From a virus, in the IMG/VR virus record IMGVR_UViG_3300043786_000977, positions 1-64,000 of that record: 64,000 nucleotides of DNA, one strand, 5' to 3'. Positions 12,910 through 58,708 of this stretch are shown in pieces. The notes below the pieces were generated by a model. That model searched no databases, was not told where the DNA came from, and was given only the letters and a program-made list of their open reading frames with translations. Both the position numbers and the translations under genes were made by a program. Within the stretch, counting starts at the first letter, position 1; every line of letters starts with the position of its first letter.

Positions 12910-15900
12910 ATGTCATATACCCTACCGCAAGTGCAGGTGTTTCAGATCTTCCGGCAGTTGCCACAGAACGTAGTCAAGAATTTGAATGCGTTCGTCTTCG
13001 GACCGCATTATCAGTTATTCCGCTACGCTGTAGCAGCTGAGAAAGAACTGATCAGCCTCGGCGCGTACGCTAAGGATGCAGATGTAACCTATCCATGGCC
13101 CAATCAACCTACAAACAGTGTTGTGGACCTTGGCTATGTGAAGCTGTATGCCGAGAACGTATGGGCCGAGTATTTGGCGATCACGGCGGGCAATGAAGCC
13201 CAGATCGTCAGTGAAGAGGAACGCAATAAGGTTCGCGTTGACGATCTTGTTTTGAAGGAAGCAAATGGGTATACCCGTTCCGCGGGCATCCTGCGTGACG
13301 TGGCTGTAGGCGATCGTGTACGTTATTCGTATACCGATCTATACGACGTCGTGCATACAGGTACCACGAAGATTGTGGGACTCGAAGCAGACATGATAGC
13401 CGCGGTCGTCGGCGATGCAGCTGCAAAGGCCTCTAACCAGGCGGACGTGACTGGCACAGCCGATCTCGATTCCGGCGCAACCGCACCTGTAACAACGCCG
13501 GCTGGTGTCATGACACTGAGTGCGGTCTACGCATTGGCAGGTATCGGATCCGATGATCAGTTCCCTGGGTTACTATCTGCGGGTGTGGTTGAAGATACAA
13601 TCACGATCACGATTACCACCGGTGGTGCCAAGGGTACAGCGCGTGCAACCGTGGCCTACGCCTCTGGTATGTACACACGCGAAAACGCGTTGATCGAAAC
13701 TGCGGGGAGCCAGGAAGGCCAGATCTACCTCGGTAACAACGTGTACCTGGAATTCGAAGCGGATTCCGGCGAAGACACCGACTTTGTGGAAGACACCGAG
13801 TTTACAGTCGAATTGGCAGCTGTCTTCACGAAGCCTGATGCCGCGACATTCGGCGTTCCGAGTGCAGATTATACAGGGACAAGCAAGACAACGTACGTGC
13901 TCGAAGTCGTCCGCGGTGGTTTGTTCGATCGCACTGTTACAGTGTCGAAGGGTCTGACCAATGTCGCCGATAAGGTGCTGAAGGTCGGTCCCGGCGATTC
14001 TACTACACCTGACTGGACCACATGGCTGGGTGGTGACTATGATGACGAGTATATCCTACGCTGCACAGGCGCAGGTAGCGTAACCGTTGCCAAGTTCACA
14101 CTGGTATCGCAACGCGGGGATAACGAGAGCACCGTGATGTTCAGTGCTGCTGACACGGATGTAACCGTCGGTAATCGGGGTCTTGTGGCTCAGTTGCCCG
14201 CAGGCACCTACAGCGTAGGCGACTACTGGGTTATCCGTGTCAACGCGTCTCGTCCGCAGATCAAGATCACTGACACGGCAGGAATCGACGCTACGCAGTT
14301 TAAGACTGTGGCTGATGCCACGTTGATGGACATCGGCGCTTACGGTGTGGAATTCACACCGGCAGCCAATTCTAACGCGGAAGGTGGCGTAGATGCCCAG
14401 GGCGGTTTGCGTCGTGGCGATGTATACTACATCACCTGCACACCGGCCGTGGTTGACGCTGTTAAGACGATGGTGTTCGCTGACTCGCTGGCATCTGGAA
14501 TCCCTGCGGGTGTGGATATTGCACTATGGTTGTACATGGTAAAGAACGGCGTCGAAGTTACCGGGAAGCGTACGCAGGTTGCACCTGATTACAACTGGCA
14601 AGGTGACGTCGACGACGGTATTACCGTCTATCAGGATCTCCAGGTCCAGGATGATTCGTGGGCAACAGAAGAGGGTGAGCATCTGTGGTTGGACGTATAC
14701 AGCGCTACGTTGTATGTCGAGTACCGTGCGTTGTTGAACAGCTACACAGACACAATCCATGTGATGACTGATGTCAGTGATGTGGCAACCACATTGGGTA
14801 CCGTGCATCCGGATAACCCGTTGGCGCAAGGCGTGTATAACGCGTTGCTGAACAGCGGTGACCGGGCCGTATACTACATGGGTGTCGTATCTGTGGATGC
14901 TGCGGGTTGGAGCAGAGCCTTGGATAAGGCGACGCTGTCGGAAGACGTCTATGTGTTCGTACCACTAACCCAGGATGCAGCCATGCTTGACCTGGTTAAG
15001 GCACACATCGATACGCTGTCGACGGAGACTGAGAAGCACTGGCGTATCGGCTTCTTCGGCGCGACAACACCTACAGAGGATCCAATTTACACCAAGGTAT
15101 CCAACCCGGCAGGGGAAGACTTCTTGGCTCAGATCGCGTTGGACTCTGAGACCGCCGAATACACGCTGTTGACATTCGTCGACGCAGACGGTGATCCTTC
15201 GACCTATACGGAAGCGTTGGACGACCTGAAGGCCGGCGACAAGGTTCGTATTAACTTCGCTACTGATGCATGGGGCGATGCCACATACGCAGAATTCGAA
15301 GTGGCTACGGTACTCACCAACACGTCGTTGCGGTTGGAAGCAGGACCGGCGAGCGCGATCGATATGCCTACGAAGGTAGAAGTTATTCACCCGTACACGT
15401 TGGCTGAAATGGCCGACGCAGTGGCGGCACAGTCGAACGGGTACTTCAGTCGTCGTATCTATAACGTCTTCCCGTCACAGTTGGGTTCGAACGGTGTGGT
15501 AATGACAGGTGAATTCGGTGCAGCCGCTGTTGCTGGTCTAGCCAGCTCGGTGCCTCCGCAGCAGCCTATCACTAACATCGAAGTCAATGGTTTCGATGAC
15601 CTACCGTTGGTTTACCAGACGTACAATCGCACACAGTTGAACAAGATGGCGGAATACGGTACCATGATCCTCATGCAGGACACTGCAGGTGGGCGGATAT
15701 ACGTACGTCACCAGGTCTCAACCCAGGCGAAGGACGGTAATCTGAATACGACTGAGTTGAGCATCACGAAGAACCTCGACTCGATCTCGTACTTCTTCGC
15801 AGCTATGTTCGCGCCTTATATTGGCCGGTACAATATCACGCCGGAACTGATTGAGGTTCTACGGACACAGTTGGTGGCCGGTCTGAATTACCTAGGCTCG

Positions 15901-16059
15901 TTGACGAGCGTCGGTAATCTGGGGCCGCAACTCAATCTCACGCAGACCGAAATTGTTGAGATGCGCCAGCACCCGTTGCTGGAGGATCATGTGGTAGCTA
16001 CGGTAAACCTTGGAATGCCGAAGCCGTTCAACGTGTTCCAGTTGAAGTTAGTGGTGTAA
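12910..16059 (+). CDS. Contractile tail sheath protein
   Basis: The 1049-residue protein starts after a GGAG site and is followed by the tube gene, the order typical of contractile tails. The C-terminal 230 residues have the sheath pattern: a Pro-Pro-Gln-Gln-Pro-Ile turn, an Asn-Arg-Thr-Gln-Leu-Asn-x-Met-Ala helix leading to a Gly-Thr-Met-Ile-Leu strand, then a His-Gln-Val-Ser-Thr strand and a long helical end. The N-terminal 60 residues are also sheath-like. The protein is much longer than common sheaths (roughly 400-700 residues); the extra length is a Thr/Asp/Val-rich, probably surface-exposed beta domain (about residues 150-560). The product would contract to drive the tube into the envelope. 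Confidence 0.8.
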   Translation: MSYTLPQVQVFQIFRQLPQNVVKNLNAFVFGPHYQLFRYAVAAEKELISLGAYAKDADVTYPWPNQPTNSVVDLGYVKLYAENVWAEYLAITAGNEAQIVSEEERNKVRVDDLVLKEANGYTRSAGILRDVAVGDRVRYSYTDLYDVVHTGTTKIVGLEADMIAAVVGDAAAKASNQADVTGTADLDSGATAPVTTPAGVMTLSAVYALAGIGSDDQFPGLLSAGVVEDTITITITTGGAKGTARATVAYASGMYTRENALIETAGSQEGQIYLGNNVYLEFEADSGEDTDFVEDTEFTVELAAVFTKPDAATFGVPSADYTGTSKTTYVLEVVRGGLFDRTVTVSKGLTNVADKVLKVGPGDSTTPDWTTWLGGDYDDEYILRCTGAGSVTVAKFTLVSQRGDNESTVMFSAADTDVTVGNRGLVAQLPAGTYSVGDYWVIRVNASRPQIKITDTAGIDATQFKTVADATLMDIGAYGVEFTPAANSNAEGGVDAQGGLRRGDVYYITCTPAVVDAVKTMVFADSLASGIPAGVDIALWLYMVKNGVEVTGKRTQVAPDYNWQGDVDDGITVYQDLQVQDDSWATEEGEHLWLDVYSATLYVEYRALLNSYTDTIHVMTDVSDVATTLGTVHPDNPLAQGVYNALLNSGDRAVYYMGVVSVDAAGWSRALDKATLSEDVYVFVPLTQDAAMLDLVKAHIDTLSTETEKHWRIGFFGATTPTEDPIYTKVSNPAGEDFLAQIALDSETAEYTLLTFVDADGDPSTYTEALDDLKAGDKVRINFATDAWGDATYAEFEVATVLTNTSLRLEAGPASAIDMPTKVEVIHPYTLAEMADAVAAQSNGYFSRRIYNVFPSQLGSNGVVMTGEFGAAAVAGLASSVPPQQPITNIEVNGFDDLPLVYQTYNRTQLNKMAEYGTMILMQDTAGGRIYVRHQVSTQAKDGNLNTTELSITKNLDSISYFFAAMFAPYIGRYNITPELIEVLRTQLVAGLNYLGSLTSVGNLGPQLNLTQTEIVEMRQHPLLEDHVVATVNLGMPKPFNVFQLKLVV

Positions 16060-16066
16060 CAAATAC

Positions 16067-16092
16067 GCGGGTGGTGTATAACCACCACCCGC
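16067..16092 (+). other. Perfect 10-bp hairpin between sheath and tube genes
   Basis: The arms 16067-16076 and 16083-16092 pair perfectly around a 6-nt loop. No T run follows, so this is not a classic terminator. It lies 7 nt after the sheath stop and just before the tube ribosome binding site, so it may protect or process the mRNA, or attenuate transcription. Confidence 0.7.
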
Positions 16093-16110
16093 TTCACAAA
16101 GGAGAATACT

Positions 16111-16626
16111 ATGGCAGGCACAGATATTTTTGGATACCTTCGGAGTCCTAAACCAGAAGGTGTGTTTTCGAGCGAAGACTCGATGTTAGTCATCGGTTCG
16201 GTGAACGCGACGTCTAAGGCGTACCTCGTCCAGCAATGGAATGTAGAATACCAACAGCAAGTACAGGAGCTATTCGAGATCGGGTCAAACCGACTCTTCT
16301 GGCAGAAGGGTCGTCCAGTCGGTCAGGGTACGATCCAGCGCGTACTGGGTGGTGCGAGCGCGGATTCAGGGACAGCAGATGGTCTATTCCCTGTGGACGC
16401 CTACGATCTGTGTAAGGGTGGCGCTACAATGACGATTAAGGCTGTAGGCGGTCACTGCCGTGATGCCGTGGCTGGCGGTATTAAGCTGAATAGTGGCGTA
16501 CGCATCGAGATGGACGGCGTAGTTATTACGTCGATCGGTTTCTCAATGTCGGTACAGGACGTGAAGCTCATGGAGAATTACAACTGGCGTTTTGGTCACT
16601 TGAAACTGGCCTCAGAGACGGCATAA
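16111..16626 (+). CDS. Tail tube protein
   Basis: The 171-residue protein starts 5 nt after an AAAGGAG site and lies directly after the sheath. Size, beta-rich composition, the early Gly-Ser-Val-Asn-Ala strand and the late Ile-Glu-Met-Asp-Gly-Val-Val strand fit a hexameric contractile-tail tube. Hairpins on both sides (16067, 16689) set it off as a separately controlled, probably abundant product. Confidence 0.7.
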   Translation: MAGTDIFGYLRSPKPEGVFSSEDSMLVIGSVNATSKAYLVQQWNVEYQQQVQELFEIGSNRLFWQKGRPVGQGTIQRVLGGASADSGTADGLFPVDAYDLCKGGATMTIKAVGGHCRDAVAGGIKLNSGVRIEMDGVVITSIGFSMSVQDVKLMENYNWRFGHLKLASETA

Positions 16627-16688
16627 GTATAGTCCAGCAATAATCTGATCGGCGCTGGGACGAAATACGAAATATTCTCCCACCACTT

Positions 16689-16745
16689 ACCCAGCCCGGA
16701 TGATACGCGGTGACACGCATCTATCGTCTGGGTTGGGTTTATTTT
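16689..16745 (+). terminator. Terminator-like hairpin after tube gene
   Basis: The arms 16689-16704 and 16723-16738 pair over 16 positions with several G-U pairs, around an 18-nt loop. The sequence that follows is rich in T. The 134-nt gap between tube and spike genes contains no other feature that I can see. Confidence 0.6.
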
Positions 16746-16760
16746 TAGGAGTAACGACGA

Positions 16761-19247
16761 ATGTTCAGGATATCGGCAGGTTTGGGTAAAGTATTCGGCC
16801 GCGGATCCGGTCGTTCCAAAGCAATCGCGCAGACAGGTAACACGGGCCAGGACGGCATGGTAGAAGCCTTCCACGGCAGCGAACCCACTTTTGTGATCGG
16901 CACTGTCAGTCGTTCAGGGCCTGAGTGGTACGATCTGACTGTTGTCTGTGGTACCCGGGGTGAGGTCGGCTGTATTCAACTCGCTCCGATCGTCAACAAC
17001 CTATACGGCGCGTCAGTGGGTACATTACCGCCTGAGGGCAGCCGTGTACTCGTCTACATGCCGAATCCACGTCAGCGTTACGGCATTGTGGTCGGCGTCA
17101 TTCCTAACGCTAGCTCGACGCCACAAACCGATGCGACGCGTACGAAGACTGATAAAGTCTTCATGAATTTCTGGGAACTTGAATCCAACGGCAGTGTAGG
17201 CAGTGAACTGGCCTACCATAAACCGATCAGTGATAAGACGTTCATCGCGAAGCGTAACTCGAACGCGTCGCGGGCACCCGATGTGTTACCAGGGATGTAC
17301 GTGATTCAGAACGAACAGCAAGTTGGATTCGCAGTAACGCCACTTGCCGTGACCATGAAGGCCACGAACAGGGCACAGATACGTGTAGGGCTGGTCGACG
17401 ATCAGGTGCGCATTGTATGCGGTCTGATGCAGTATTACAACTCGTTGGGCGTCCTGATGGCGTTCAACGACGGTGGGTATAACACGGAAGAGCGTGGGAT
17501 CACGAGTTATCAAGGCGAGCGTGCCGGCTGCACCGACATCGGGACTGACATCTTTGCCGACGACACGAATACGTCGGTGAAGGATGGGAGCCTGCATACG
17601 CGGTATAAGAACAGCAAAGCGCGGATCATTCCGAAGAAACGGCTCCAGTCGTTTATGGGTTTCCTCGGGGATATGTTCAATTTCTTTATCGCCAAACCGG
17701 ATCCTACATTCAATCCCGAGACGGAAGCGGATGACAATAAGGATCAAGGATTACTGCAGATACATACCGACGCATCCGGCCGTGCGCTCGTCCGGTCTGC
17801 AAACGGTATCTTGTTCCAGCGTTGGGATCGTATACCTATTCCCAAACGGAAACATCAACCATACGATCCGGAAGGGGACAAGGTCGAGGCAGAAGGGCCG
17901 CCGCCACCTAAGACGCCCTTTAACTGGAACACCACCCACAAGTATGCCCGTAACCTGGAACACCGTGACGGCAACGCCTGGCGGTACCTACAGGCTTATT
18001 GGCACCTACACAACCGAGCACAGTCAACGGGGAAGAAGGACTTCTATCTGCCCGAAGAACAAGATCTGAAGGTACCAGACGAACAATACGACGGCCCCGG
18101 CAAGGGTACGGAGAAGTATGCCGAGTACGATAAGCGGCAGGCGTGTATAGCGATCGAGGAGGACGGCAGCATCATACTGCGTGACGCCTGGGGTTCGGAG
18201 ATCCTCATGCGTGGCGGTAACATCATTATCAGCGCCCATGCCCAGGCGGAAGTGCGCTCAGGTAAGAACACTGTGATCCTGGGTGGGCACGACTTGGTGT
18301 TGAAGGGCCGGCAGAGCATAGACATGACAGCCACAGAGAAAGACGTGCGCATCAAGGCGGACGGTAACCTGCACATGTTGGCCGAGGCCCGGAATGGTGG
18401 CGGTGGTGTACTGATCGAAAGCAATTCAGACGGGGATGGCGGAACCTGGGATAAGAAGGGCGAGCAGTCTCGGGGTAAAGGTATTGTGTTGAAGGCGAAG
18501 AACTCCCGGGTCTTTGCACAGGGGCGTAAGGTACATCTATCAGGGGAACGTAGTGTCATGGTTGAGACCTTCGGTGAAGACAGTGGGAAAAATGAAGGTC
18601 GTATCGAACTCAGTTCCACACGCATCAACGCCAACTCCGAGAAACAGACGATTTTAACAAGCGGTGACGAGGCAATGTTCATGCTTACGAAGTCATCTGC
18701 GTACGTCTGCGGCCGTGCAGCTTACTTGATTGCGGGTAAGAGCGCCGGCATCATTAAGAATTCCAAGTTTGCGGTGCCGTTGATGTGGGCGCCGATAGGG
18801 AGTGACCCCTATACCAATATACAACCGTCGATAGAACAAATCCACGACTACCTACAAGCTATAACGTGGTTGGCGCCTTATCAACCGACTGATCGTAAGG
18901 ATGTACGTTTCACCTATCGCACTTCGGCCGAGTATGGTACTGTAAAACCTAGTGAGATATCAGGGGCGACGAAGTTTTATGTGTACGAGGGCTTCTGGTC
19001 TTATATGGCGCGTGCTGGTGACCCGCTAGCGCCTGTGAAACCGGAACCGTGGCCTGAGTATGAGATTGACGGGACGAAGCCTTGGCCGGGCGTAGAAGCC
19101 TGGTCTGGATCGTTCGTGACACTGGACAACGAGGTCAATGTAGAGGCAGCTACAGGGATAGCGAATAAGCGGAGTGGTCTCAAGGACCATGGTGGTACCT
19201 TGACTCCGCATGAGTTCTCCGAATACGCAGTAATACCACACAGTTAA
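16761..19247 (+). CDS. Baseplate spike protein with OB-fold and beta-helix (gp5/VgrG-like)
   Basis: The 828-residue protein starts after a TAGGAG site. The N-terminal region (about 35-120) has OB-fold character, with short strands and a Gly-Ser-Arg-Val-Leu-Val-Tyr element, as in the spike hub of contractile tails. The middle is a Pro/Lys-rich insertion. From about residue 480 to 680 the sequence is an Asp/Gly/Lys-rich succession of short strands with repeated Ile-x-Ile/Val spacing, as in the VgrG/gp5 beta-helix. No lysozyme domain is seen. The C-terminus is a separate Trp/Tyr-rich domain. It probably forms the membrane-piercing tip. Confidence 0.65.
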   Translation: MFRISAGLGKVFGRGSGRSKAIAQTGNTGQDGMVEAFHGSEPTFVIGTVSRSGPEWYDLTVVCGTRGEVGCIQLAPIVNNLYGASVGTLPPEGSRVLVYMPNPRQRYGIVVGVIPNASSTPQTDATRTKTDKVFMNFWELESNGSVGSELAYHKPISDKTFIAKRNSNASRAPDVLPGMYVIQNEQQVGFAVTPLAVTMKATNRAQIRVGLVDDQVRIVCGLMQYYNSLGVLMAFNDGGYNTEERGITSYQGERAGCTDIGTDIFADDTNTSVKDGSLHTRYKNSKARIIPKKRLQSFMGFLGDMFNFFIAKPDPTFNPETEADDNKDQGLLQIHTDASGRALVRSANGILFQRWDRIPIPKRKHQPYDPEGDKVEAEGPPPPKTPFNWNTTHKYARNLEHRDGNAWRYLQAYWHLHNRAQSTGKKDFYLPEEQDLKVPDEQYDGPGKGTEKYAEYDKRQACIAIEEDGSIILRDAWGSEILMRGGNIIISAHAQAEVRSGKNTVILGGHDLVLKGRQSIDMTATEKDVRIKADGNLHMLAEARNGGGGVLIESNSDGDGGTWDKKGEQSRGKGIVLKAKNSRVFAQGRKVHLSGERSVMVETFGEDSGKNEGRIELSSTRINANSEKQTILTSGDEAMFMLTKSSAYVCGRAAYLIAGKSAGIIKNSKFAVPLMWAPIGSDPYTNIQPSIEQIHDYLQAITWLAPYQPTDRKDVRFTYRTSAEYGTVKPSEISGATKFYVYEGFWSYMARAGDPLAPVKPEPWPEYEIDGTKPWPGVEAWSGSFVTLDNEVNVEAATGIANKRSGLKDHGGTLTPHEFSEYAVIPHS

Positions 19248-19258
19248 CGAGGTATAAA

Positions 19259-20038
19259 ATGGAATCACCAATCGAACACAAGTTGAAGGATAGACTACGT
19301 GAAGCGCAGGACAGCGGTAAGCTGTCATTACGCAGCAGTGATCTGGGTAGCGCGAAAGCGACTACATCAGACGCGGGCGCGCCATTGGGTCCGGTAACGA
19401 CCGCGGTACCGCCCCAGGCCAACAACGATCCGTTGATCAATAGAGCAATCCAGTCCGGTGGTCAGGCGTTGACCGAGGCAAACGCCGTCGTGGATGGCGT
19501 CATCAAGGATTCGAATCCTAGTGACATCGCGACCACGATGCTAGGCGACGATATGCAGGTAACAATAACCGACGAGGACCGTAACACCTTTCTCGATGCA
19601 CTCGTCTCCGGTGAACGCTATATCCGCAGGTTCAGTCTCTTTGACGGGCGCGTGAAGGGTAAACTGCGCTGCCGGTCTACGGAAGAGAGCGAGGCGATTG
19701 CGTCCTGGTTTAATCACGGTTTGCGTGAAGCCAAATGGAAGTCACCGCTGGAGTATGCGATCGCACTGCGTAACGGGTTACTCGCTTCACAGGTGCTTGA
19801 GTTGAATGGTGTACGTTACCCTACGTTGGCAACGCCACTTTATCGGACACCAGATCCTGCTGCGCCTGATAAGTATATCGACCCAGGTTGGTTGGCTACG
19901 GCTGCAGTGTGGTCACAGAAACCAGAGCCCGTAGTTGCCGCGATATACGAAGAGTTACGGCGCTTCGAACGTAAATACTGGACGATGGTCTCTAACGCAA
20001 CTGATCAAAATTTCTGGCATCCCGCAGAATCTACTTAA
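19259..20038 (+). CDS. Tail assembly chaperone, short form (lambda G-like by context)
   Basis: The 259-residue protein is encoded right before the tape measure gene, as the G product is in lambda and the equivalents in other tailed phages. It has a disordered Ala/Pro/Gly-rich N-terminus (about 20-70), then an acidic domain with a Ser/Thr-Glu-Glu-Ser helix and a Trp-rich C-terminus. The last codons contain a slippery heptamer at 20008-20014, so part of the ribosomes should shift to the -1 frame and make a 392-residue fusion. No sequence similarity to lambda G is claimed; the call rests on position and on the frameshift signal. Confidence 0.65.
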   Translation: MESPIEHKLKDRLREAQDSGKLSLRSSDLGSAKATTSDAGAPLGPVTTAVPPQANNDPLINRAIQSGGQALTEANAVVDGVIKDSNPSDIATTMLGDDMQVTITDEDRNTFLDALVSGERYIRRFSLFDGRVKGKLRCRSTEESEAIASWFNHGLREAKWKSPLEYAIALRNGLLASQVLELNGVRYPTLATPLYRTPDPAAPDKYIDPGWLATAAVWSQKPEPVVAAIYEELRRFERKYWTMVSNATDQNFWHPAEST

Positions 20039-20059
20039 CGGTAGCGACTCGTCTGCGGG
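20008..20059 (+). promoter_or_regulatory. Programmed -1 ribosomal frameshift signal
   Basis: The heptamer A-AAT-TTC (20008-20014) matches X-XXY-YYZ in the reading frame of the upstream gene. After a 6-nt spacer (20015-20020), a perfect 8-bp stem (20021-20028 with 20052-20059) encloses a 23-nt loop that contains the zero-frame stop codon (20036-20038). The -1 frame is open from 20005 through 20435. Confidence 0.85.
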
Positions 20060-20436
20060 GTGGGTACCCGATCGACAATAACGAATATCCGCATACGGTC
20101 TTAACGGAAGCGTTGCGGATGGATGTTCTGGAGTCTGAGCATCTGTTGCAGGCCCGGTTAGCCAATACCGTGGCCATGGCCGCATTGCATGCCAGCCCGG
20201 AGGCTGATGTAAGAAAGGGTGCAGAAATAGTCGGGAGGTTGTATACTACAGCGTTGGATTCAATTCCGTATATTCAGACAGGGAGCAGTGAAGGTCAGAC
20301 GCAGGGTACCAATGATCGGGAAGCTGCTATCAATAGATATAAGGAATTGCGCGATACGTTGGAGCAGGAGCGCCAGAAGATAGATCAGGACATGCGGAGT
20401 AAGTCGCAGAAGAAACCAGGTAAATTAGACGTGTGA
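20014..20436 (+). CDS. -1 frame extension of the tail assembly chaperone (lambda T-like part)
   Basis: This 140-codon frame has no convincing start of its own: the first candidates are TTG 20113 and ATG 20119 without a good ribosome binding site, while the frame is open back to 20005, upstream of the neighbouring gene's stop. It is best read as the C-terminal part of a fusion made by -1 frameshifting at 20008-20014 (252 + 140 residues). The part is highly helical and charged, with a coiled-coil-like Glu/Arg/Gln stretch near the end. By analogy with lambda GT it would link chaperone, tape measure and tube during tail assembly. Confidence 0.75.
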   Translation: MASRRIYLTVATRLRGGYPIDNNEYPHTVLTEALRMDVLESEHLLQARLANTVAMAALHASPEADVRKGAEIVGRLYTTALDSIPYIQTGSSEGQTQGTNDREAAINRYKELRDTLEQERQKIDQDMRSKSQKKPGKLDV

Positions 20437-20452
20437 TTGGTGGAAATAAGCA

Positions 20453-23400
20453 ATGAATGAGGGATCTAACAATCAACTAGTGGGGGCCTTAGCACAACTG
20501 CTGGGCGTTGCTGCACCCATATCGGTTATGCCGCGTCTTGGTAATACGATGCATACGGCCGTAACACAACCAGCGGGCCTGCCCGAACAAATACGCGCCA
20601 TGGCAGGTCCGCTGCTGGCCTCCCAGGTACTGGGGATGCGTAACCCGACTACACTCATGCGCGTTGCCCCGGGGCAGGGCGTCGGTGAAGCTTATTACGC
20701 ACATGAGTCGACTACAAAAGCGTGGCAGATGGTACAGAATGAAGCCATGTACAATATGTCCAGGGGATTCGGGAAAGAGTTCAGCCGTACTGCCGAACGC
20801 ATGGGTATTCCGCAGATGCTCGGTATCGATCCTCGAGCGTTCCATGATACTATCAACAAAGGAACATCAACATCAGCAGGTGCCATGCTTGCCTCACAGA
20901 TGATGTCCCTTCCCGGGGTTAATGCACTTATGGGCGGTAATCCGATGGCCGCTTACCAGCAGGTCTTTGCTAAACGGTCGGCGTTCGCCGATCAGTGGGG
21001 TTCTATGGCAAACCCAGCTGACAAAGGTCGCCAGGAGTATGCCCGTCAGATATCGACGGATATAACGAACTCGTTGGAAATGGCGATTCGTGGAACGCCC
21101 GGCGGTGGGTTTGGCTTAAGTCAGAACTTCGGGTTCACCCGTGGAATGCGCGACGAAGACATGGCAGCGGTCATGGTGCGTATGAGTGAGGGCGGTGCCT
21201 TTGGTGATACTGGTTTACGCATGCGGATAGCCCAGGAAGCAGATATGCAGGAAGCCATTGACAATGGGGTGAGTCCTGAGGACGCAGTAGCACGCCACGG
21301 TCCCCGTTACATGCAGGAACAGGAACGTATAACCCAACATGTCGGCACGGCTAATAAAGTATTTGAGACACTGGGTGATATTATGGGTTCGCGTGATATG
21401 GCGCAACTCATGCAGACGATGGACGACCTTACGGGTAGCCAGTGGGAGTCAATGGATCCCCAAACGCTCAGCAAACTGAATGCCAACTTGCGTGATATGC
21501 AGGCAACGGCCCAGGTACTAAACGTAAGCAACACAGAGATGCTCGGGGCGGTACAGTCCATGCAACGGACGATGCAAGGTGCCACAGGGGTCACCGCCAA
21601 CCAGATTGCCATGGGTATGACTGGTGGTGGGTATGGGGATGCAGCCGCAGCGATCAATATGACACAACACGCGTATGCGGTTGCACAGGCGAATGGCGTG
21701 CGCAGTGCGGCTGGGATTGACCGCGTTGCCACGCAGCAGGCCGGGTTAATGGCGATTGGGCTAGACTCAAGCGCGGGCAAATCGGCGCGACTTGTTGAGT
21801 ATCTGAATCAGCAAGGTATGATTGATCCCGAACTGTATAAGCAGGCTGTCGGTGCGCTATCTACAGGGACGCAAGGACAACGCAACGGTATGGTCAATGC
21901 AGTGTTGGAACGTGCTTTCGGTAGTGTTGCCGAAGGTAGAAAGATGATCGACGATCCATACTTTATGCAGATGATGCGTGAGAACACGAGTTCCGAGTCT
22001 GCACAGAGAGCTATGACAACGATTCGTGACGGACAAGCGACTGAATGGGGTCAGCGTGTGCTTACACAACAATGGCGTGGTCTGGGTCGTTATGTTACAG
22101 GTATGCAGAAACAGGCCGGAATGTCTCACGCAGTAGACCCGCAAATTGTTGCCAAAGAATCGTACGAGATAACGAAAGGTTTCCTAGCGCGGCAATCTAT
22201 GGAGGATGTGCCCGACTCAGCAAGACGGTTGGCACAAAAGGTGTATGATGACGCCATTGCCTCCGATAAGACACCACAACAGGCTTACGCAGCAATGCGT
22301 AGTTACATTAAAAGTGACCCCGGTCTGAGTCGGTATGCCCAAGATATTGCAAACGAAGTAAGCATGGCGACCACGGCGCTCGGCGTGACCAATATGAATA
22401 ATCAGTTAACACCTGGTAAGCAATTGGTGACTACGTTGAGCCAACTGAGTAACTGGGACTTCGAGAAACGGCTGACGGATAGTCAGAAACAAGAACTTGG
22501 AGCGATTCGTAAACTAGGCCGGACGGATCCGAACGCGGCAGCACCACAACTAGAGGCTTTCCTAGAACGATCAGAAATTAAGAGTAAGTTAGATACTGAT
22601 GAACAGGACCAGATCAAGGCGCAACGTGACAAGGTCAAACTTGATACCGATAAGACCGTGGCTTTTGCAGGTGCAAAACATGCAGCAATAACACGTATCA
22701 CAGCCGGGTTAGACACGGGTATGAATATCTCTGACATTCAGACTGCAAATACACGCTACGGTGCAGCGCTTGATACTTACATGCAGGATATAAAGGAGAA
22801 TAACAAGGCTCAGGGTGAAGCTAAGTTCAAAGCTACATTAGGCAGTGTCGCAGGTATGTTCGATCCCGCAGAGTTACAGACCGCAGTACAGATGGCAGCT
22901 AGCGGTAATTTAGCGCAACTAGAGGAAGCACGGAAGCGTCAGAGTGTGATCGAAGCGCATGATATGATCAGTGTTGCGGCCGCGGCTAAGGATCGTAATC
23001 TACAAATCGACTTAACGAGGGGCGTCGGTGACAAGGACCGTGCTCAGCTGGCTCCGGAGCGTCTACGCGCACAGACCTACAGTGTGGGACTGTGGAATCA
23101 AAGGATGGCTGATAACCCTGCTTTACAGAATTTACGGAAAACTTTTTCGCAGACAGCCGTAGACTTTGCACAAGGCAAGACGGGCCTTGCTGGTCTGTTT
23201 GGTGTTAGAGAAGGTGCCCCGTTGGTGCAGGATGAGGCGGTAAACAAGGAGCTCGCCGCATACCGTAAGCAGATGGGCCTGGATGAGTTCGAGCAAGGTA
23301 TAGAGGCGGCGCAGAAGAAGACTGGGGCGGCCATTGCCGCGTTTGATGCACTAAAAATGACGGATACTGCTAATGTTGCAATAACTGAGCGTATGCAGCG

Positions 23401-24136
23401 GGACTTCGACGCAGCAGCACAACAAGGTAAACTTAAGACACAGGCGGATTTCGATCAGTTCCTCGCACATGATGCATATAAAGGGGTCAGTGACGAGGCC
23501 AAGAACGCACTCGGCGGGGTGTGGCAAGGGTACAGCGACGAGGGCAAGTTACACGACGAGTACGCGAAACGTATGTCCGATGTCGTGGATACCAAGAATT
23601 TTAAGGCATTCGAGAAACGCCTTACGGCAACCCGCACACGGGAAGCGAGGCAGGCCGCCCGTGAAGTCCAAGATGTCATGACCAATGCCACGGATGCCGG
23701 ACTCGAAGGTTTGTTCGATATTAAGAAAGGTGAACTCAGTAGTAGCCAGCAGAGAGTGTTGGATAAAGCATTACCTGCTTTCGCACCCAAATCATCCGGT
23801 GTGTACAATAGCAAAGAACTCCTGGAGGCAGCCGTACAAGAGTTTACGGATCCGGTGACCGGTAAACCCATGACGCGTGAAGAGGTGGCGGATAAGTACC
23901 GTAAAGGTAAGATGTCCAAGGAGCAATTTGAGGCTTACGGACGTGTAAACGATGTACTAGAATCTGTAGATCGGAAGCGGCGTGACACACGTGAAGCCGC
24001 GGTTGACAAGATGGCCGGTCGTGAACCCGGGCAGGGTAGAGGTGGTCGCGGTGACAGTATTAAAGGTACCCTGCAACTCGTAGATAAGAAGGGTCAACCT
24101 CTCGGTAACGTGAATATGGATGCTGAATATGAATAG
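20453..24136 (+). CDS. Tape measure protein
   Basis: The 1227-residue, almost entirely helical, Ala/Gln/Met-rich protein follows the frameshifted chaperone gene. It has long coiled-coil-like stretches (about residues 680-800 and 930-1150), weakly hydrophobic Gly/Met-rich segments in the N-terminal third (about 55-190) and no cysteine that I noticed. This fits a tail tape measure, which sets tail length and is ejected with the DNA. I see no peptidase or lysozyme motif. A few Lys-Ala motifs (Met-Gln-Lys-Gln-Ala, Leu-Tyr-Lys-Gln-Ala) occur, at far lower density than in the head proteins. Confidence 0.72.
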   Translation: MNEGSNNQLVGALAQLLGVAAPISVMPRLGNTMHTAVTQPAGLPEQIRAMAGPLLASQVLGMRNPTTLMRVAPGQGVGEAYYAHESTTKAWQMVQNEAMYNMSRGFGKEFSRTAERMGIPQMLGIDPRAFHDTINKGTSTSAGAMLASQMMSLPGVNALMGGNPMAAYQQVFAKRSAFADQWGSMANPADKGRQEYARQISTDITNSLEMAIRGTPGGGFGLSQNFGFTRGMRDEDMAAVMVRMSEGGAFGDTGLRMRIAQEADMQEAIDNGVSPEDAVARHGPRYMQEQERITQHVGTANKVFETLGDIMGSRDMAQLMQTMDDLTGSQWESMDPQTLSKLNANLRDMQATAQVLNVSNTEMLGAVQSMQRTMQGATGVTANQIAMGMTGGGYGDAAAAINMTQHAYAVAQANGVRSAAGIDRVATQQAGLMAIGLDSSAGKSARLVEYLNQQGMIDPELYKQAVGALSTGTQGQRNGMVNAVLERAFGSVAEGRKMIDDPYFMQMMRENTSSESAQRAMTTIRDGQATEWGQRVLTQQWRGLGRYVTGMQKQAGMSHAVDPQIVAKESYEITKGFLARQSMEDVPDSARRLAQKVYDDAIASDKTPQQAYAAMRSYIKSDPGLSRYAQDIANEVSMATTALGVTNMNNQLTPGKQLVTTLSQLSNWDFEKRLTDSQKQELGAIRKLGRTDPNAAAPQLEAFLERSEIKSKLDTDEQDQIKAQRDKVKLDTDKTVAFAGAKHAAITRITAGLDTGMNISDIQTANTRYGAALDTYMQDIKENNKAQGEAKFKATLGSVAGMFDPAELQTAVQMAASGNLAQLEEARKRQSVIEAHDMISVAAAAKDRNLQIDLTRGVGDKDRAQLAPERLRAQTYSVGLWNQRMADNPALQNLRKTFSQTAVDFAQGKTGLAGLFGVREGAPLVQDEAVNKELAAYRKQMGLDEFEQGIEAAQKKTGAAIAAFDALKMTDTANVAITERMQRDFDAAAQQGKLKTQADFDQFLAHDAYKGVSDEAKNALGGVWQGYSDEGKLHDEYAKRMSDVVDTKNFKAFEKRLTATRTREARQAAREVQDVMTNATDAGLEGLFDIKKGELSSSQQRVLDKALPAFAPKSSGVYNSKELLEAAVQEFTDPVTGKPMTREEVADKYRKGKMSKEQFEAYGRVNDVLESVDRKRRDTREAAVDKMAGREPGQGRGGRGDSIKGTLQLVDKKGQPLGNVNMDAEYE

Positions 24137-27004: not shown

Positions 27005-27022
27005 TTGACGATAGGAGCATTT

Positions 27023-27724
27023 ATGCTTGAATATGACACATGGCAACAATCTCAGACACCTCAAAACCTTGCGCCGCTCATGCAAGCCTTGGATCCCGTG
27101 ATCAACGCTGAGATCCAGCGTTTCACCGGCCCGAAACCACTGCTGCGTGGGCGAGCGCGGGCCTTAGCAGTCAAGGCAATACGCTCGTACGATCCGACAG
27201 CCGGTGCACAATTGAAATCCTGGGTCGTTACCCAACTGCAACCCCTGTCACGTTATACACAGCAACTCAAACCCGTGCACGCGCCTGAGGTAGCCATTCG
27301 TCAGGCAGCTGAGGTGAATAGACAGAGACAGGAACTCAGCGAGGAACTGGGTTACGATCCGAGCTCTGAAGAGTTGGCAGATCAAACAGGATTGTCAGTC
27401 AAACGGATCAATTACGTTCAGAAGATCGTGCGGCCGACGATCGCAGAGGGTAGTATGTCTGAGACGGCCGAAGAGGACAACACGTCCACAGCGCCGGGTG
27501 TGTCTCAGCTGCATAAACTCTCGGTTGTGGAAGAAGCTGTCTTTGATTCGTTAAGTCCACGTGACCAGATGATCTTCGAGTGGAAAACAGGTAAACACGG
27601 TAAAGTGCAGTTAAGCAATCAGGAGATCGCGAAACGCCTGGGCGTAACGCCGGCACTCATAAGCCAACGCAGTCAGCAGATCGCATTACAGATTCAAGCG
27701 TTACATGAGAGAGGGATACTATAA
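27023..27724 (+). CDS. Sigma-70-like factor encoded inside the baseplate operon
   Basis: ATG 27023 follows AGGAG (27013-27017) by 5 nt, giving 233 residues; the in-frame TTG at 27005 is rejected. The layout is that of a small sigma-70 family protein. Residues 41-80 have region-2 character: Ala-x2-Ala-Ile-Arg-x-Tyr-Asp-Pro-Thr-x-Gly-Ala, then Ser-Trp-Val. Residues 95-137 match region 3, with Glu-Leu-Gly-Tyr-Asp-Pro-Ser-x-Glu-Glu-Leu-Ala then Leu-Ser-Val-Lys-Arg-Ile. Residues 168-225 match region 4: Leu-Ser-Pro-Arg-Asp-Gln-x-Ile, then Ser-Asn-Gln-Glu-Ile-Ala-x-Arg-Leu-Gly-Val-Thr-x-x-x-Ile-Ser as the helix-turn-helix. It could redirect host RNA polymerase to late promoters. A structural protein with borrowed domains is the alternative. 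Confidence 0.7.
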   Translation: MLEYDTWQQSQTPQNLAPLMQALDPVINAEIQRFTGPKPLLRGRARALAVKAIRSYDPTAGAQLKSWVVTQLQPLSRYTQQLKPVHAPEVAIRQAAEVNRQRQELSEELGYDPSSEELADQTGLSVKRINYVQKIVRPTIAEGSMSETAEEDNTSTAPGVSQLHKLSVVEEAVFDSLSPRDQMIFEWKTGKHGKVQLSNQEIAKRLGVTPALISQRSQQIALQIQALHERGIL

Positions 27725-45625: not shown

Positions 45626-46618
45626 ATGAATACAAGTGATCGCATACCACTGATCCCGCCCACGCGGGTTAAGATTGCCGTCTCGATTCTGTCCGAGACA
45701 CAAGACTATAATCACCGTCTAATGAACATTCCGGCGATGTGGCGTAGTACACGCGGCGCTGGCGTCAAGGTCGCTATTCTGGATACAGGTCTGCCTAAGC
45801 ATGTCGATCTGTTACCCTCCGGTGGTAAGAGTTTTATTGAAGGGTATCTGCTCGATACAAACGGGCATAGTACACACTGCGGTGGTATTATCGCAGCAAC
45901 CGCCAATAACAATATGGGTGTGATGGGCATTGCACCGGACGTTGAAGACTGGTACGGGGCAGTCCTGGATGGTGATGGTCAAGGTAGTATTGATTCCATT
46001 ATCAACGGCATTCGGTGGGCTGTAGACGTTGTTGGCGCCGACATCATCAGTATGAGTCTAGGTATACCGGCCAATGCACGCTACGAACGAGCACTGGAAG
46101 CAGTGTGCCAGTATGCTGTGAACCAGGGCGTCGCAATATTTGCCGCGGCTGGCAACGAGTACGGTGCTGTGGGTCAGCCCGCGCAATACGATTGCGTATA
46201 CGCGGTTGCCGCAATCGATAAGAACTTCACACCAGCAGATTTCTCGAATCGGGGACAGTCAGTCGACTTTGCGGCCGGCGGTGTAGACGTCTTTTCGACC
46301 TACCTTAACGATACGTACGCCAAGTTGAGTGGTACGTCTATGGCTACTCCTGCACTCGTGGGTGTCGCAGCACTCATTCTCAGCGACGCCAGGCAGGGCG
46401 CACAGCCCCGTAAACTGACACCGGCTGAGTTGGGCGCCAAACTACGGAAGATAGCATTTGACGTCGGGCCTGCTGGCGTAGACGATGCGACAGGTATCGG
46501 AATTCCTGTCTTCCAGTCGTCAGGTACCGAACCCGTCGTACCACCTGTGGTAGTCCCGGGCTATCCGACTCACCGGCCCTGGTGGCAATACCTGTGGCCT
46601 GGTTATTGGTGTCTCTGA
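45626..46618 (+). CDS. Subtilisin-like serine protease (S8 family)
   Basis: The 330-residue protein starts 6 nt after AGGAGG. All catalytic elements are visible: Asp53 in Ile-Leu-Asp-Thr-Gly, His81 in Gly-His-Ser-Thr-His-Cys-Gly-Gly, the oxyanion Asn177 in Ala-Ala-Gly-Asn-Glu, and Ser238 in Ser-Gly-Thr-Ser-Met-Ala-Thr-Pro. There is no signal peptide and only a short N-terminal region, so it is probably made active inside the cell or packaged. The C-terminus is Pro/Trp-rich. The His motif has Ser and Cys where most subtilases have Gly and Val. It may process virion or host proteins; the target is unknown. This is distinct from the prohead protease at 5834. Confidence 0.88.
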   Translation: MNTSDRIPLIPPTRVKIAVSILSETQDYNHRLMNIPAMWRSTRGAGVKVAILDTGLPKHVDLLPSGGKSFIEGYLLDTNGHSTHCGGIIAATANNNMGVMGIAPDVEDWYGAVLDGDGQGSIDSIINGIRWAVDVVGADIISMSLGIPANARYERALEAVCQYAVNQGVAIFAAAGNEYGAVGQPAQYDCVYAVAAIDKNFTPADFSNRGQSVDFAAGGVDVFSTYLNDTYAKLSGTSMATPALVGVAALILSDARQGAQPRKLTPAELGAKLRKIAFDVGPAGVDDATGIGIPVFQSSGTEPVVPPVVVPGYPTHRPWWQYLWPGYWCL

Positions 46619-49419: not shown

Positions 49420-50522
49420 TGAATCCGACACCGGATTATCTTGTCGTCGGCGCCGGTCCCTCCGGTTGTGTTATTGCGGAACGGCTGGCCGGCCGCGGCT
49501 GTTCTGTATGTCTGGTTGATAAACGAGACCATATCGGGGGTAACTGTCACGATGCGTATGACGATGCAGGCATCTTGGTGCACAGGTACGGGCCACACTA
49601 CTTCCGTACAAACGATGATGCGTTGCTGCAGTACCTATCTCAATTCACCGGTTGGTTACCTGCACAGTATATCGTGCAGAGCAAAGTAGGTGAGATATAC
49701 TATCCGCTGCCGATCAACCTGACGACATTGGAGATGTTCTTCAACCGAACGTTTGACGAGACGTCTGCCCGTGAATTCATTAAGTCCCGTTGTGAACCCA
49801 TAGCACAACCGACGAATGCGGAAGAGTACGTGCTGGCCAACATGGGCCGGGAACTCTATGAGACATTCTACCGGCCGTACACATTGAAACAATGGGGTTG
49901 TTCACCGCGGGAAATTGATGTCGCCGTATGTGGGCGGGTACCTATACGGTTCAACCGTGATTGCCGTTACGTGACACACAGGCATCAGTGTATGCCGGCC
50001 GACGGATACACGGCTCTGTTTACCCGTATGGTGACAGCGCGTGGTATCGTGGTACATTTGAACACGGATTACACGGCCATCAAAGAGTACTGCAAACCGA
50101 AGATTGCAACCGTGTATACCGGGCCTGTAGACACATATTTCGGTCACTGTTACGGTGCGTTACCGTGGCGTTCATTACGTTTCGAACCGCGGTATTATGC
50201 CACGGTTTTTAAGCAACCCTGTGTCCAGGTCAACTATCCGGATGAACAACCCTTTACACGTTCCGTCGAGATCAAACATGTCACGGGACAGGTACATCCC
50301 GCGACGACTGTGATATACGAGTACCCGGTAGCGACGGGTGAGCCTTACTATCCGGTACCCTCACAGGCATCGCGTGAACAGTATGCCCGGTATCAGGAAC
50401 TAGCAGAGCGTGAGACTGCACTACACCGTGTTCATTTTATCGGTCGCCTGGCCCAGTATACCTATATTGACATGGACCAGGCGATACTGGCTGCACTTAA
50501 AGCAGCGGACACGCTCATTTAA
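49419..50522 (+). CDS. glf: UDP-galactopyranose mutase
   Basis: The 367-residue protein has the usual length of bacterial Glf. The FAD-binding N-terminus reads Val-Val-Gly-Ala-Gly-Pro-Ser-Gly (9-16), then Val-Asp-Lys-Arg-Asp-His-Ile-Gly-Gly-Asn (33-42) and His-Arg-Tyr-Gly-Pro-His-Tyr-Phe (55-62), all hallmarks of the family. Further family marks are Thr-Leu-Lys-Gln-Trp-Gly in the middle and Gly-Arg-Leu-Ala-Gln-Tyr-x-Tyr-Ile-Asp-Met-Asp-Gln near the end. The enzyme interconverts UDP-galactopyranose and UDP-galactofuranose, feeding galactofuranosyl transfer. The convergent glycosyltransferase gene overlaps its 3' end by 8 nt. Confidence 0.9.
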   Translation: MNPTPDYLVVGAGPSGCVIAERLAGRGCSVCLVDKRDHIGGNCHDAYDDAGILVHRYGPHYFRTNDDALLQYLSQFTGWLPAQYIVQSKVGEIYYPLPINLTTLEMFFNRTFDETSAREFIKSRCEPIAQPTNAEEYVLANMGRELYETFYRPYTLKQWGCSPREIDVAVCGRVPIRFNRDCRYVTHRHQCMPADGYTALFTRMVTARGIVVHLNTDYTAIKEYCKPKIATVYTGPVDTYFGHCYGALPWRSLRFEPRYYATVFKQPCVQVNYPDEQPFTRSVEIKHVTGQVHPATTVIYEYPVATGEPYYPVPSQASREQYARYQELAERETALHRVHFIGRLAQYTYIDMDQAILAALKAADTLI

Positions 50523-52029
50523 GCCAGCTGTTCGCCAGCGAGTTACCGAGGTCCAGTACCACTTTGCCTGTGGCCTGGGCCAGCCGCACAGCAAGGCCTT
50601 TACCTGGCGCCCCTCCACTGAGAAGCACAAGGCCCGCGTGGTGCTGCTCTACGACGTCTGTGATGCGCTTGTGATCACGCCAGCCAGTCATTACCACGCC
50701 TGTAATGTCAGGGTGCTTATAACGCTTTTGCAGACTCGTGGCTAACCGTTCAGCGTCACCGTGTAGAATGAGCACACCACCCTGGTTGAGCACAGGACCC
50801 ACACGTCCTGTCGCCTGCCACAGTTCAGGGTAAAACTGATCAATGAAACGATCACGTTCAGGGAAGTACGGGTGTACCAGGAAATCGGCCCAGAAGATAC
50901 CCGAGATTGTGCAGGCCAGGAAGTCCGCATGGTTGCCGGCCCAGAGCAGATCACTACCCAACGCCTTCAAATCACAATCAACCAATCCGATACGTTTCAA
51001 GTAGGCCGGGTCTTTAAGGAAATGCTTAGGTGCTTCCTCACCGCGACTGTAGGCAATAATCGCCCGTTCACCGTCCGACATACGTACCACCGATGTCGGT
51101 ACTTTGTGTTTAAGGCGGTGTACGATCATGGCGGCTAATGCGTCGGATGAAAGTATCTTGTTGCAGAAGGCTTCGGTTTCGGCTGACAAGACGATTTTAC
51201 TGAAGTCCGGTCCTTGAACCTGTGGTATTTGTGCCCGTGGTTTTTGTACCTGCTGCTTTATTACGGTTGCTTTTGCCACAACGGGTACTGCGGGTAGACT
51301 CGGGATCGTCCACTTAGGCCACGCCTTCAACTTCTTATCTGACTCTCTGATATAATTCGCACGTCGGTGTAACGGATCCTTTATCCATTCTTTGGGATTT
51401 GGCAGTATCCATTTGTTAGCGCCACGCAAACGGATTAACGGGGTATGTGTGCGTTGCGCCCATACCGCGATATCTTCGTCGTCGCCTGAATGGATTGGCC
51501 CAGTACAAACGTCACGGGTTAAACCGAGCGCCTGTGGGTACGAGGCCATTACACCCGCACCGAGAATGTGTACACCGATATCGCGACTGATAGCATGATC
51601 GTAACCGTACAGGACGCGATTATCTTTCGCCAAGTTACGTGCGGGCATCGGTGCACCATTGCGTATACGATAAACACCACCATGTAGACCTACGATCGCT
51701 TTACGCTGGTAACGGTCAACGGCCTCGACAAGGTATTTAGCGTAGTCTGGTGGGTAGAGTATATCATCATCAACGGATAGATAATAACCGGCTTCGGCGC
51801 CTAACCAATGGAACTTACCGTGACTACCGACATCGGGCGCCGTGCACTCGGGGCCGGCCAGGATCACATCAAGTTTGGCGTCGTTTGGTAGCTCAGGCGG
51901 TCGTTCCGAATACCCGTTCAGATATAAACGCAGTACGTCGCATTGGGGTAGTAGGTCAGCAACTGCACGCAACATACCTGCTTTACGAGGCGGAAACGAC
52001 GCCATGGCAACAATGATTGGATCACTCAT
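50515..52029 (-). CDS. Two-domain glycosyltransferase (GT-A-like plus GT-D/DUF1792-like)
   Basis: The 504-residue protein starts at ATG 52029 with GGAG 7 nt upstream. The N-terminal domain (about 1-230) has a nucleotide-sugar GT-A pattern: Ala-Ser-Phe-Pro-Pro-Arg at the start, Ser-Val-Asp-Asp-Asp (85-89) as the DxD metal site, and Ser-Gly-Asp-Asp-Glu-Asp (181-186) as an acidic acceptor-site element. A Pro/Gln/Lys linker (about 245-275) follows. The C-terminal domain (about 300-504) has Met-Ser-Asp-Gly-Glu-Arg (317-322), a Leu-Leu-Ser-Gly-Gly-Ala-Pro-Gly-Lys-Gly-Leu-Ala element and Val-Leu-Asp-Leu-Gly-Asn (491-496), as in the DUF1792/GT-D fold. Galactofuranose from the neighbouring mutase is a plausible donor for one of the two. 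Confidence 0.68.
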   Translation of the reverse strand: MSDPIIVAMASFPPRKAGMLRAVADLLPQCDVLRLYLNGYSERPPELPNDAKLDVILAGPECTAPDVGSHGKFHWLGAEAGYYLSVDDDILYPPDYAKYLVEAVDRYQRKAIVGLHGGVYRIRNGAPMPARNLAKDNRVLYGYDHAISRDIGVHILGAGVMASYPQALGLTRDVCTGPIHSGDDEDIAVWAQRTHTPLIRLRGANKWILPNPKEWIKDPLHRRANYIRESDKKLKAWPKWTIPSLPAVPVVAKATVIKQQVQKPRAQIPQVQGPDFSKIVLSAETEAFCNKILSSDALAAMIVHRLKHKVPTSVVRMSDGERAIIAYSRGEEAPKHFLKDPAYLKRIGLVDCDLKALGSDLLWAGNHADFLACTISGIFWADFLVHPYFPERDRFIDQFYPELWQATGRVGPVLNQGGVLILHGDAERLATSLQKRYKHPDITGVVMTGWRDHKRITDVVEQHHAGLVLLSGGAPGKGLAVRLAQATGKVVLDLGNSLANSWLK

Positions 52030-56670: not shown

Positions 56671-56972
56671 GATCAGCATTACTAACAGTGGAGTTCTGGG
56701 TGACGATGGTAACGAACGTCGTCGGTTTAGTTGTCCTGTTCGGTGGACTATCCGCGGATAAAGCAGATTCGCTGAAGTCGACCCTGACAGTGATCATAGG
56801 TGCCGTACTACCGCTGGTCGCGTCGACAGTATACGCCAAGTCGCGTAGTGATCTGAAACGCACAATTGCAGATGCAACACTTTATCGTCTAACGCCTACG
56901 GATGCAGACGGTAAGGTACGCACTGCTTCAGTGGACGACGCGACAGCTGTTTTAAAACGTCTGGGCATCTAA
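56667..56972 (+). CDS. Two-span membrane protein, holin-like
   Basis: The 101-residue protein has two hydrophobic spans (about residues 9-28 and 38-56) separated by a short polar turn with Asp/Lys, followed by a basic segment and a soluble tail. This size and topology are those of class II holins, and also of several small phage membrane proteins. No endolysin gene is seen nearby, so a lysis role is only a possibility. The stop overlaps the next start (TAATG). Confidence 0.4.
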   Translation: MRSALLTVEFWVTMVTNVVGLVVLFGGLSADKADSLKSTLTVIIGAVLPLVASTVYAKSRSDLKRTIADATLYRLTPTDADGKVRTASVDDATAVLKRLGI

Positions 56973-58708
56973 TGACCAACGTACGTCCAGAAAAACCGAC
57001 AGGCCCCGGTAATCGGGGTCTGTCGACTACCGTTACCCGTGAGCTCGGAACCAAGACCGGTGCTTATGCAGGGCTTGTCAAGATCGCACAAGGAGTGTTA
57101 GGCGCTGTCCGAAGCGGGGTGCTTTCGCCTTTGTCTAAAGCCAGAAGTATTACGAGTGTAGGTAACGCGGTCACCCAAGGTCTGCCCAGTTCTACTTCAA
57201 ATAGTCTGCCAGGACGCGCCATCGAGACTGCGGATACGGTACTAGGCACTACTGCAAGTGGTGTCGGTTTGACCGGTTACGGTGCTGAGTTGACGGGTGC
57301 TGCACTTCGGGGAATACCTCTTGCCGCTAACACGGTGGCGACTACAAAAGGCATAGCGGGAGCCGCGGGTCGTGTTGCCGTACCCTTGGCGCTCGCAGGG
57401 CATGCGATTGATACAGCCCGCTTAATTAACGATCCACGGGGAGTGACTGATGCGGCTGCCGCCAATATTCAGGATTACGGTGACAGCTTCGGCAGTGCGA
57501 TGAAAGCAGTTGGGCATAATACGCTGCAAGCAGTAGGCTCATCTATTCCAACAATCGCAGCTACAGTTCGTGGTGTAGGCGAATTAGGTTCACAACTCGT
57601 GGAAAACAGACGCCTCGCTGCTCGAGATCGACAGCTTGCACCGCGGTATCGTATACTTCAATTACAACAACAGCAACGGCAACGGTTAAAACAACTGCAG
57701 CCACCACAACAGGCCGGGACGTTCGTACAGAAGACTAGTATGTTCTCAGGCCTCGTCAAGATCGCCCAGCAGAACTTTGCTCCAGGTATCGTCGACAAGG
57801 CAGTCTACGGCGATGTGTTGGGTACCCTGAAACCCGGCGACATCACTGACTTCGTATTGCAACACCACAGTACAGTACGTAACCCCAAGTATCCACATTA
57901 CGACATGCGTCTAGGTACCAAGGATACGAATCTTTTCAGTTGGGCCATACCCAAGGCAGAATTGCCGCGTCCAGGCACATCCAAGATGCCGATCCCGCAG
58001 ACTCAATTGCATACGTACCAGTACGGTAGCTTCGAAGGTAAGATCCCACACGGATATGGCGCCGGCGTAGTAAGAATGGCCGACAAGGGTAAGGCAGTCA
58101 TCACCCGTGTCACGCCAAACACGCTCCATTTTACCCTGGGGCATACCAAGGTACCTACACGTTACGTGCTTGTCCATATCGGTGGACGGGACGGTAAGAT
58201 GTGGCAGTTAATCGCGAAACCCGAACCAGGTAAGGTACCGGGCGCGGACGAGGAACCCATCTACGCACGGATAAACGCCGTCGACCAGGACGATGCGATC
58301 CAACAGGCAACCCAGGTCCAGGCGAAAATTGACAAGGCTGCGTCGCTTATTCCGTTGCGCTTCATCAACAAGAAGGGCGGGGTGAAAGCATCAGCGGCTG
58401 TTGAGATTGCAGATACCGCTGAACTGCGTCGCATTGGTTTATCCAAACGTGCATCGCTACCTGCCAATCACGGTATGTTCTTCGATAAGGTCGGTGCCTT
58501 CTGGATGAAGGATGTTCACTTTCCTTTAGACTTGGTATTTGTCGATCGACATGGTACGGTACTCGAGAAGCACGCGATGCCAGTAGACAAGGGCGGACGT
58601 AAGTTATATAGACCATCTAGCGCTGACGTTGCGCATGCGATTGAACTCCCGCACGGTTGGTGTGACCGTTATGGGATAACGACGGGTGACATTGTAAAGG
58701 CGGGTTAA
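56972..58708 (+). CDS. Fusion of LigD-type 3'-phosphoesterase domain and DUF192 domain, probable virion cargo
   Basis: The 578-residue protein has three parts. Residues 1-250 are Ala/Gly/Thr-rich with weakly apolar stretches and a Gln-rich end, unrecognised. Residues about 293-415 match the phosphoesterase domain of bacterial NHEJ ligase LigD: Phe-Val-Leu-Gln-His-His (294-299), His309-Tyr-Asp311-Met-Arg313-Leu, Ser-Trp-Ala-Ile-Pro-Lys328, His347-x3-Tyr351, then Phe-Glu-Gly-Lys-Ile-Pro and Gly-Tyr-Gly-Ala-Gly. The known catalytic and metal residues of the family all have counterparts, so it may trim 3' ends. Residues about 475-576 match DUF192: Gly-Met-Phe-Phe, Phe-Trp-Met-Lys-Asp-Val, Pro-Leu-Asp-Leu-Val-Phe-Val-Asp. 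Leu-Val-Lys-Ile-Ala-Gln occurs twice (35-40 and 261-266), just before domain borders. Confidence 0.78.
   Translation: MTNVRPEKPTGPGNRGLSTTVTRELGTKTGAYAGLVKIAQGVLGAVRSGVLSPLSKARSITSVGNAVTQGLPSSTSNSLPGRAIETADTVLGTTASGVGLTGYGAELTGAALRGIPLAANTVATTKGIAGAAGRVAVPLALAGHAIDTARLINDPRGVTDAAAANIQDYGDSFGSAMKAVGHNTLQAVGSSIPTIAATVRGVGELGSQLVENRRLAARDRQLAPRYRILQLQQQQRQRLKQLQPPQQAGTFVQKTSMFSGLVKIAQQNFAPGIVDKAVYGDVLGTLKPGDITDFVLQHHSTVRNPKYPHYDMRLGTKDTNLFSWAIPKAELPRPGTSKMPIPQTQLHTYQYGSFEGKIPHGYGAGVVRMADKGKAVITRVTPNTLHFTLGHTKVPTRYVLVHIGGRDGKMWQLIAKPEPGKVPGADEEPIYARINAVDQDDAIQQATQVQAKIDKAASLIPLRFINKKGGVKASAAVEIADTAELRRIGLSKRASLPANHGMFFDKVGAFWMKDVHFPLDLVFVDRHGTVLEKHAMPVDKGGRKLYRPSSADVAHAIELPHGWCDRYGITTGDIVKAG

Follow-up and report, generated by a model that had tools for sequence, protein, structure and literature searches.

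The window, that is, the whole stretch of DNA analysed here, is the first 64 kb of a virus record of 208,908 bases and carries a tail module containing two overlapping open reading frames (ORFs). The features are given below; L001 is a close relative, an IMG/VR contig of 210,732 bases.

12910..16059, plus strand: tail sheath, 1049 aa (PHROG 279 tail sheath, E=5.8e-13)
16111..16626, plus strand: putative tail tube, an ORF of 171 aa, named for its position after the sheath; 56% identical to L001 2760-3398
19259..20038, plus strand: zero-frame ORF, 259 aa, putative gpG-like tail assembly chaperone; homologue in L001
20008..20436, plus strand: -1 frame, putative gpT-like extension, 142 aa from the heptamer; homologue in L001 in the same arrangement
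20008..20014, plus strand: slippery heptamer A AAT TTC, in phase with ORF 19259-20038
20015..20020, plus strand: 6-nt spacer TGGCAT
20021..20028, plus strand: 5' arm of the 8-bp stem, CCCGCAGA; relative to L001, 7 pairs are unchanged and 1 is compensatory
20031..20044, plus strand: inner 4-bp stem CTAC/GTAG with apical loop TTAACG; the stem is kept in L001, the loop varies
20036..20038, plus strand: zero-frame stop TAA, within the inner apical loop of the stem-loop
20052..20059, plus strand: 3' arm of the 8-bp stem, TCTGCGGG, the perfect complement of the 5' arm
20453..24136, plus strand: putative tape measure, an ORF of 1227 aa, named for its position and length; residues 55-628 are 27% identical to an L001 ORF of 1023 aa

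The order of the module is sheath, putative tube, an ORF of 828 aa (16761-19247), the pair of overlapping frames (hereafter the G/T pair) and then the longest ORF of the tail module. The G/T pair is thus located between the tube region and the tape measure gene, tube and tape measure being named by position only. Neither the 171-aa nor the 828-aa ORF has a database match; the latter is 36% identical to an L001 ORF of 829 aa and, by impression only, resembles a baseplate spike or hub. The zero-frame and -1 proteins gave no match in Pfam, PHROG or PDB, and no sequence or fold match backs the tape measure label. The zero-frame protein was modelled with AlphaFold, but the quality of the models (pLDDT 42 and 50) was too low for fold comparison, and a Foldseek search with one of them returned no significant matches. 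From gene order alone we infer the chaperone role and the identity of the tape measure.

Several other ORFs of the window could be assigned. A sigma factor-like protein (RNA polymerase) is encoded inside the tail/baseplate module (27005-27724; PHROG 351, E 1.9e-12), and in Salmonella phage Arash, too, a sigma factor gene follows the tail genes. Further downstream lie a subtilase-family peptidase (45626-46618; PF00082, E 9.6e-43), a minus-strand ORF with a GT-D fold-like domain (50515-52029; PF22882, E 7.4e-15), which adjoins a minus-strand ORF of 928 aa without matches, and a single ORF combining LigD 3'-phosphoesterase-like and DUF192 domains (56972-58708).

The ATG of the 259-aa ORF is preceded by a Shine-Dalgarno (SD)-like GAGGT. 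Its only X XXY YYZ site is A AAT TTC, which is read as CAA AAT TTC in the zero frame and as AAA TTT C in the -1 frame. The -1 frame has a stop just 5' of the heptamer (20002-20004) and is open from 20005 to 20436, and its first ATG, GTG or TTG is TTG 20113, about 33 codons beyond the junction. A slip at the heptamer would fuse the 259-aa ORF with the -1 frame into a predicted product of 392 aa. The sequence-only reading had described an in-frame heptamer, a 6-nt spacer, a perfect 8-bp stem enclosing the stop, a downstream frame open across the junction without a good start, and products of 259 and 392 residues; each of these was reproduced, the products as frame lengths. It had also likened the locus to lambda G/GT. 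Comparison with relatives strongly supports the frameshift in that analogy, and the place before the longest tail gene was found as well, whereas 'chaperone' and 'tape measure' stand as labels given by position only.

The outer 8-bp stem closes a loop of 23 nt that holds the zero-frame TAA, and it begins 6 nt from the heptamer, inside the usual heptamer-to-structure distance of 5-9 nt (PMC7618472). Taken alone, the stem can be extended to 11 bp (20018-20028 with 20052-20062), leaving an effective spacer of 3 nt; since this extension is absent from L001, the conserved form is the 8-bp core with the 6-nt spacer. The 61 nt from 20015 to 20075 fold at -22.3 kcal/mol (z -1.6), among the lowest 5% of 61-nt windows in 16000-24000 (70/1600). 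Such a stable hairpin would also be expected of a transcription terminator or another RNA element that does not stimulate frameshifting. This explanation is extremely unlikely, given that the hairpin lies in coding sequence, keeps the usual distance from the heptamer and is conserved along with it; a terminator was also rejected because no terminator-like site was found in 18500-20700, a region in which no promoter-like site was found either.

A heptamer with such a stem is by itself only moderately improbable as a chance occurrence. Over both strands of the window, 2 of 198 X XXY YYZ sites have a perfect 8-bp stem 5-9 nt downstream, and about 0.3 such sites are expected per strand in simulated sequence. 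The case consequently rests on the position of the signal in the frame overlap and on its conservation in relatives, which together put it far beyond chance.

Direct relatives of the G/T pair were found neither in phage records nor in genome contigs, and among viral contigs in L001 only. A degenerate DNA pattern built around the signal matched 55 viral stretches, and the right frame layout was present in the L001 contig alone. L001 has the same tail-gene order as the window. Its zero-frame and -1 proteins are 44% and 40% identical to those described here, and its further homologues are the sheath (51%), the putative tube, the 828-aa ORF and the putative tape measure, with the identities given above. 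The sheath frame of the L001 contig (G006, 117955-121890) is open for 1316 aa versus 1049 aa here; the additional sequence lies between the segments that match residues 1-114 and 104-1049.

In L001 the signal reads AAATTTCTGGAATCCCGCAGGATCTACCTCCAAGTAGCGACTCTCCTGCGGG, keeping the heptamer, a 6-nt spacer (TGGAAT), both stems and the -1 frame. All 12 of the 12 stem pairs are intact, one of them by a double change (the last pair of the outer stem, A-U here and G-C in L001, which is the sole stem difference), and substitutions fall mostly in loops. As this stem-loop is common to one close relative only, the covariation amounts to one pair and is statistically uninformative alone. The zero-frame stop of L001 is a TAG two codons later, at the end of the inner stem. 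Where residues are conserved between the two contigs, the codons in the signal are identical in 7/8 cases in the zero frame and 12/14 in the -1 frame, versus 25/88 and 10/35 in the rest of the two genes, so the nucleotides of the signal are conserved beyond what the proteins need.

A more distant group consists of Salmonella phage Arash (OQ632216, L060), the Vibrio phages D69 (OZ195729), D181 and D148 (L068-L070) and the IMG/VR contigs L062-L066, L067 being a repeat of L066. A second DNA pattern retrieved the known Arash relatives and, in addition, L077, which was rejected as a chance match without a G-like ORF. Over its C-terminal 450 residues, the sheath is about 28-30% identical to those of Arash and Vibrio phages D69, D181 and D148. 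The gene order in Arash is terminase, gp2, gp3 and a structural protein of 1097 aa. Its gp2 ends in GCA AAT TTC TAA, that is, the same heptamer immediately followed by the stop, and the -1 frame is open into gp3. In every record of the distant group examined, A AAT TTC with an immediate TAA occurs in the two genes that directly precede the putative tape measure; the three Vibrio phages are mutually identical at the signal. One check proposed in the sequence-only reading was whether relatives conserve the heptamer; it is identical in L001, in Arash, in the Vibrio phages D69, D148 and D181 and in the five IMG/VR contigs.

All four named-phage records annotate two separate genes encoding hypothetical proteins and no frameshift. 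The unannotated A AAT TTC TAA sites belong to Arash L060 2160-2540 and, in the Vibrio phages (L068-L070), to about 2032-2395. Most tail-module neighbours of gp2 and gp3 in Arash are annotated 'structural protein', which is consistent with absence of these two proteins from the virion, as far as annotation goes.

These annotations, in which the downstream gene starts past the heptamer, would fit two separate adjacent genes, the downstream frame being started internally (e.g. at TTG 20113 or ATG 20119), possibly through translational coupling, with an incidental heptamer. We consider this very unlikely. The first candidate start here lies about 33 codons into the conserved frame and lacks a clear SD sequence, the codons around the signal are frozen, and protein-level conservation of the -1 frame begins at the heptamer in both groups. 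In the distant group, the -1 peptide opens with KFL followed by [PS]WA and is conserved through the stretch before the annotated gp3 start; the alanine codon of WA is found with each of A, T, G and C as its third base. For the 24 nt before the annotated start, synonymous changes in the Arash group amount to 24/78 in the -1 frame versus 14/66 and 0/66, a comparison that favours the -1 frame only modestly.

Adjacent frames would result as well from a sequencing or assembly indel that split a single gene in two. Contigs assembled independently, and the genomes of named phages as well, nevertheless show the same arrangement and heptamer, and the stops differ (a TAA in the hairpin loop here, a TAG two codons later in L001, a TAA after the heptamer in the Arash group). 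The independent genomes refute an assembly error for practical purposes, and its probability is vanishingly small.

Between the two groups the zero-frame proteins align only faintly (hhalign E 0.0014, probability 17%), sharing an LNG motif and NF at the slip site, and KFL is the only likeness detectable between the -1 extensions. The groups are connected by gene position, heptamer and sheath, and homology of the pair across them appears likely, short of proof. The Arash group is without the stem described here; in Arash the predicted downstream fold is stable but finds little backing in covariation. The structure that RNAalifold proposes for the group pairs the heptamer itself and contains 2 compensated pairs, and it was not used as evidence.

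Taken as a prediction from sequence, a -1 programmed frameshift of the lambda G/GT type is very probably what the locus encodes. The signal is almost certainly real and conserved, and a tail-assembly protein of this phage probably exists in two forms. Most ribosomes would read the 259-codon ORF to its TAA and produce a G-like protein. A minority, held up at the stem-loop while tRNA-Asn occupies AAT and tRNA-Phe occupies TTC, would move back by one base, re-pair with AAA TTT and continue in the -1 frame to yield the 392-aa G-T fusion. Re-pairing would be good in the A site, with a G-U at the wobble position, and would leave a wobble mismatch in the P site; such a P-site mismatch likewise occurs at other X XXY YYZ sites. 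If the roles correspond to those in lambda, the tape measure protein would be coated by G, while T would bring in tail tube subunits as the tail is assembled. A pause at termination may contribute in the Arash group, whose stop immediately follows the heptamer. Slippage itself and its efficiency we infer, and likewise that the pair acts as chaperones and which genes encode tube and tape measure.

More tentatively, A AAT TTC might be a trait inherited throughout a broad clade of large phages with contractile tails. In this clade the chaperones would have diverged almost past recognition, and the stimulator would have switched from a stem-loop around the stop to a stop immediately behind the heptamer, giving two ways to pause the ribosome at one slip site; we regard this as possible, at somewhat less than even chances.

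Frameshifting in tail genes is a well-known device, and the example described here is new. In the non-subscription literature searched, no paper was found that names 'Salmonella phage Arash' or connects A AAT TTC with frameshifting. The present examples add well-supported, unannotated tail-gene frameshifts in poorly characterised contractile-tailed phages of about 172-211 kb. They indicate gene models to be corrected, Arash gp2/gp3, D69 0002/0003 and their relatives being predicted to form joined products, and they offer a functional foothold (putative chaperone, tape measure and tube) in a tail module with almost no database matches.

The reference system is lambda gpG/gpGT with its -1 frameshift (Levin et al. 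1993; Xu et al. 2004, 2013, 2014, as cited in PMC5009743), in which the ratio of G to GT is about 30:1, the tape measure is bound by G and the tube subunit by T; the arrangement is common in long-tailed phages (PMC5009743). As in lambda, overlapping frames stand directly before the tape measure gene (putative here), the -1 slip (predicted here) lies near the end of the first frame and a minor fusion product is expected. The lambda heptamer is G GGA AAG, whereas that of the present phage is A AAT TTC, accompanied by a stable stem-loop around the stop; unlike lambda, this is also a phage of about 209 kb with a contractile (sheathed) tail and no detectable sequence similarity to known chaperones. 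P2 and related contractile-tailed phages have frameshift tail genes as well (PMC5009743). With these the locus shares a -1 frameshift, predicted here, in the tail chaperone region of a myophage. P2 and its relatives use other heptamers, and their sequences are unrelated. Arash gp2/gp3 and D69 0002/0003 resemble the present pair in the heptamer, the -1 direction, the place before the putative tape measure, a related sheath and the KFL start, and differ in having the stop directly after the heptamer, another downstream RNA and shorter proteins. Having the heptamer in common and the downstream context different, the two groups lend themselves to a comparison of what determines the frameshift ratio.
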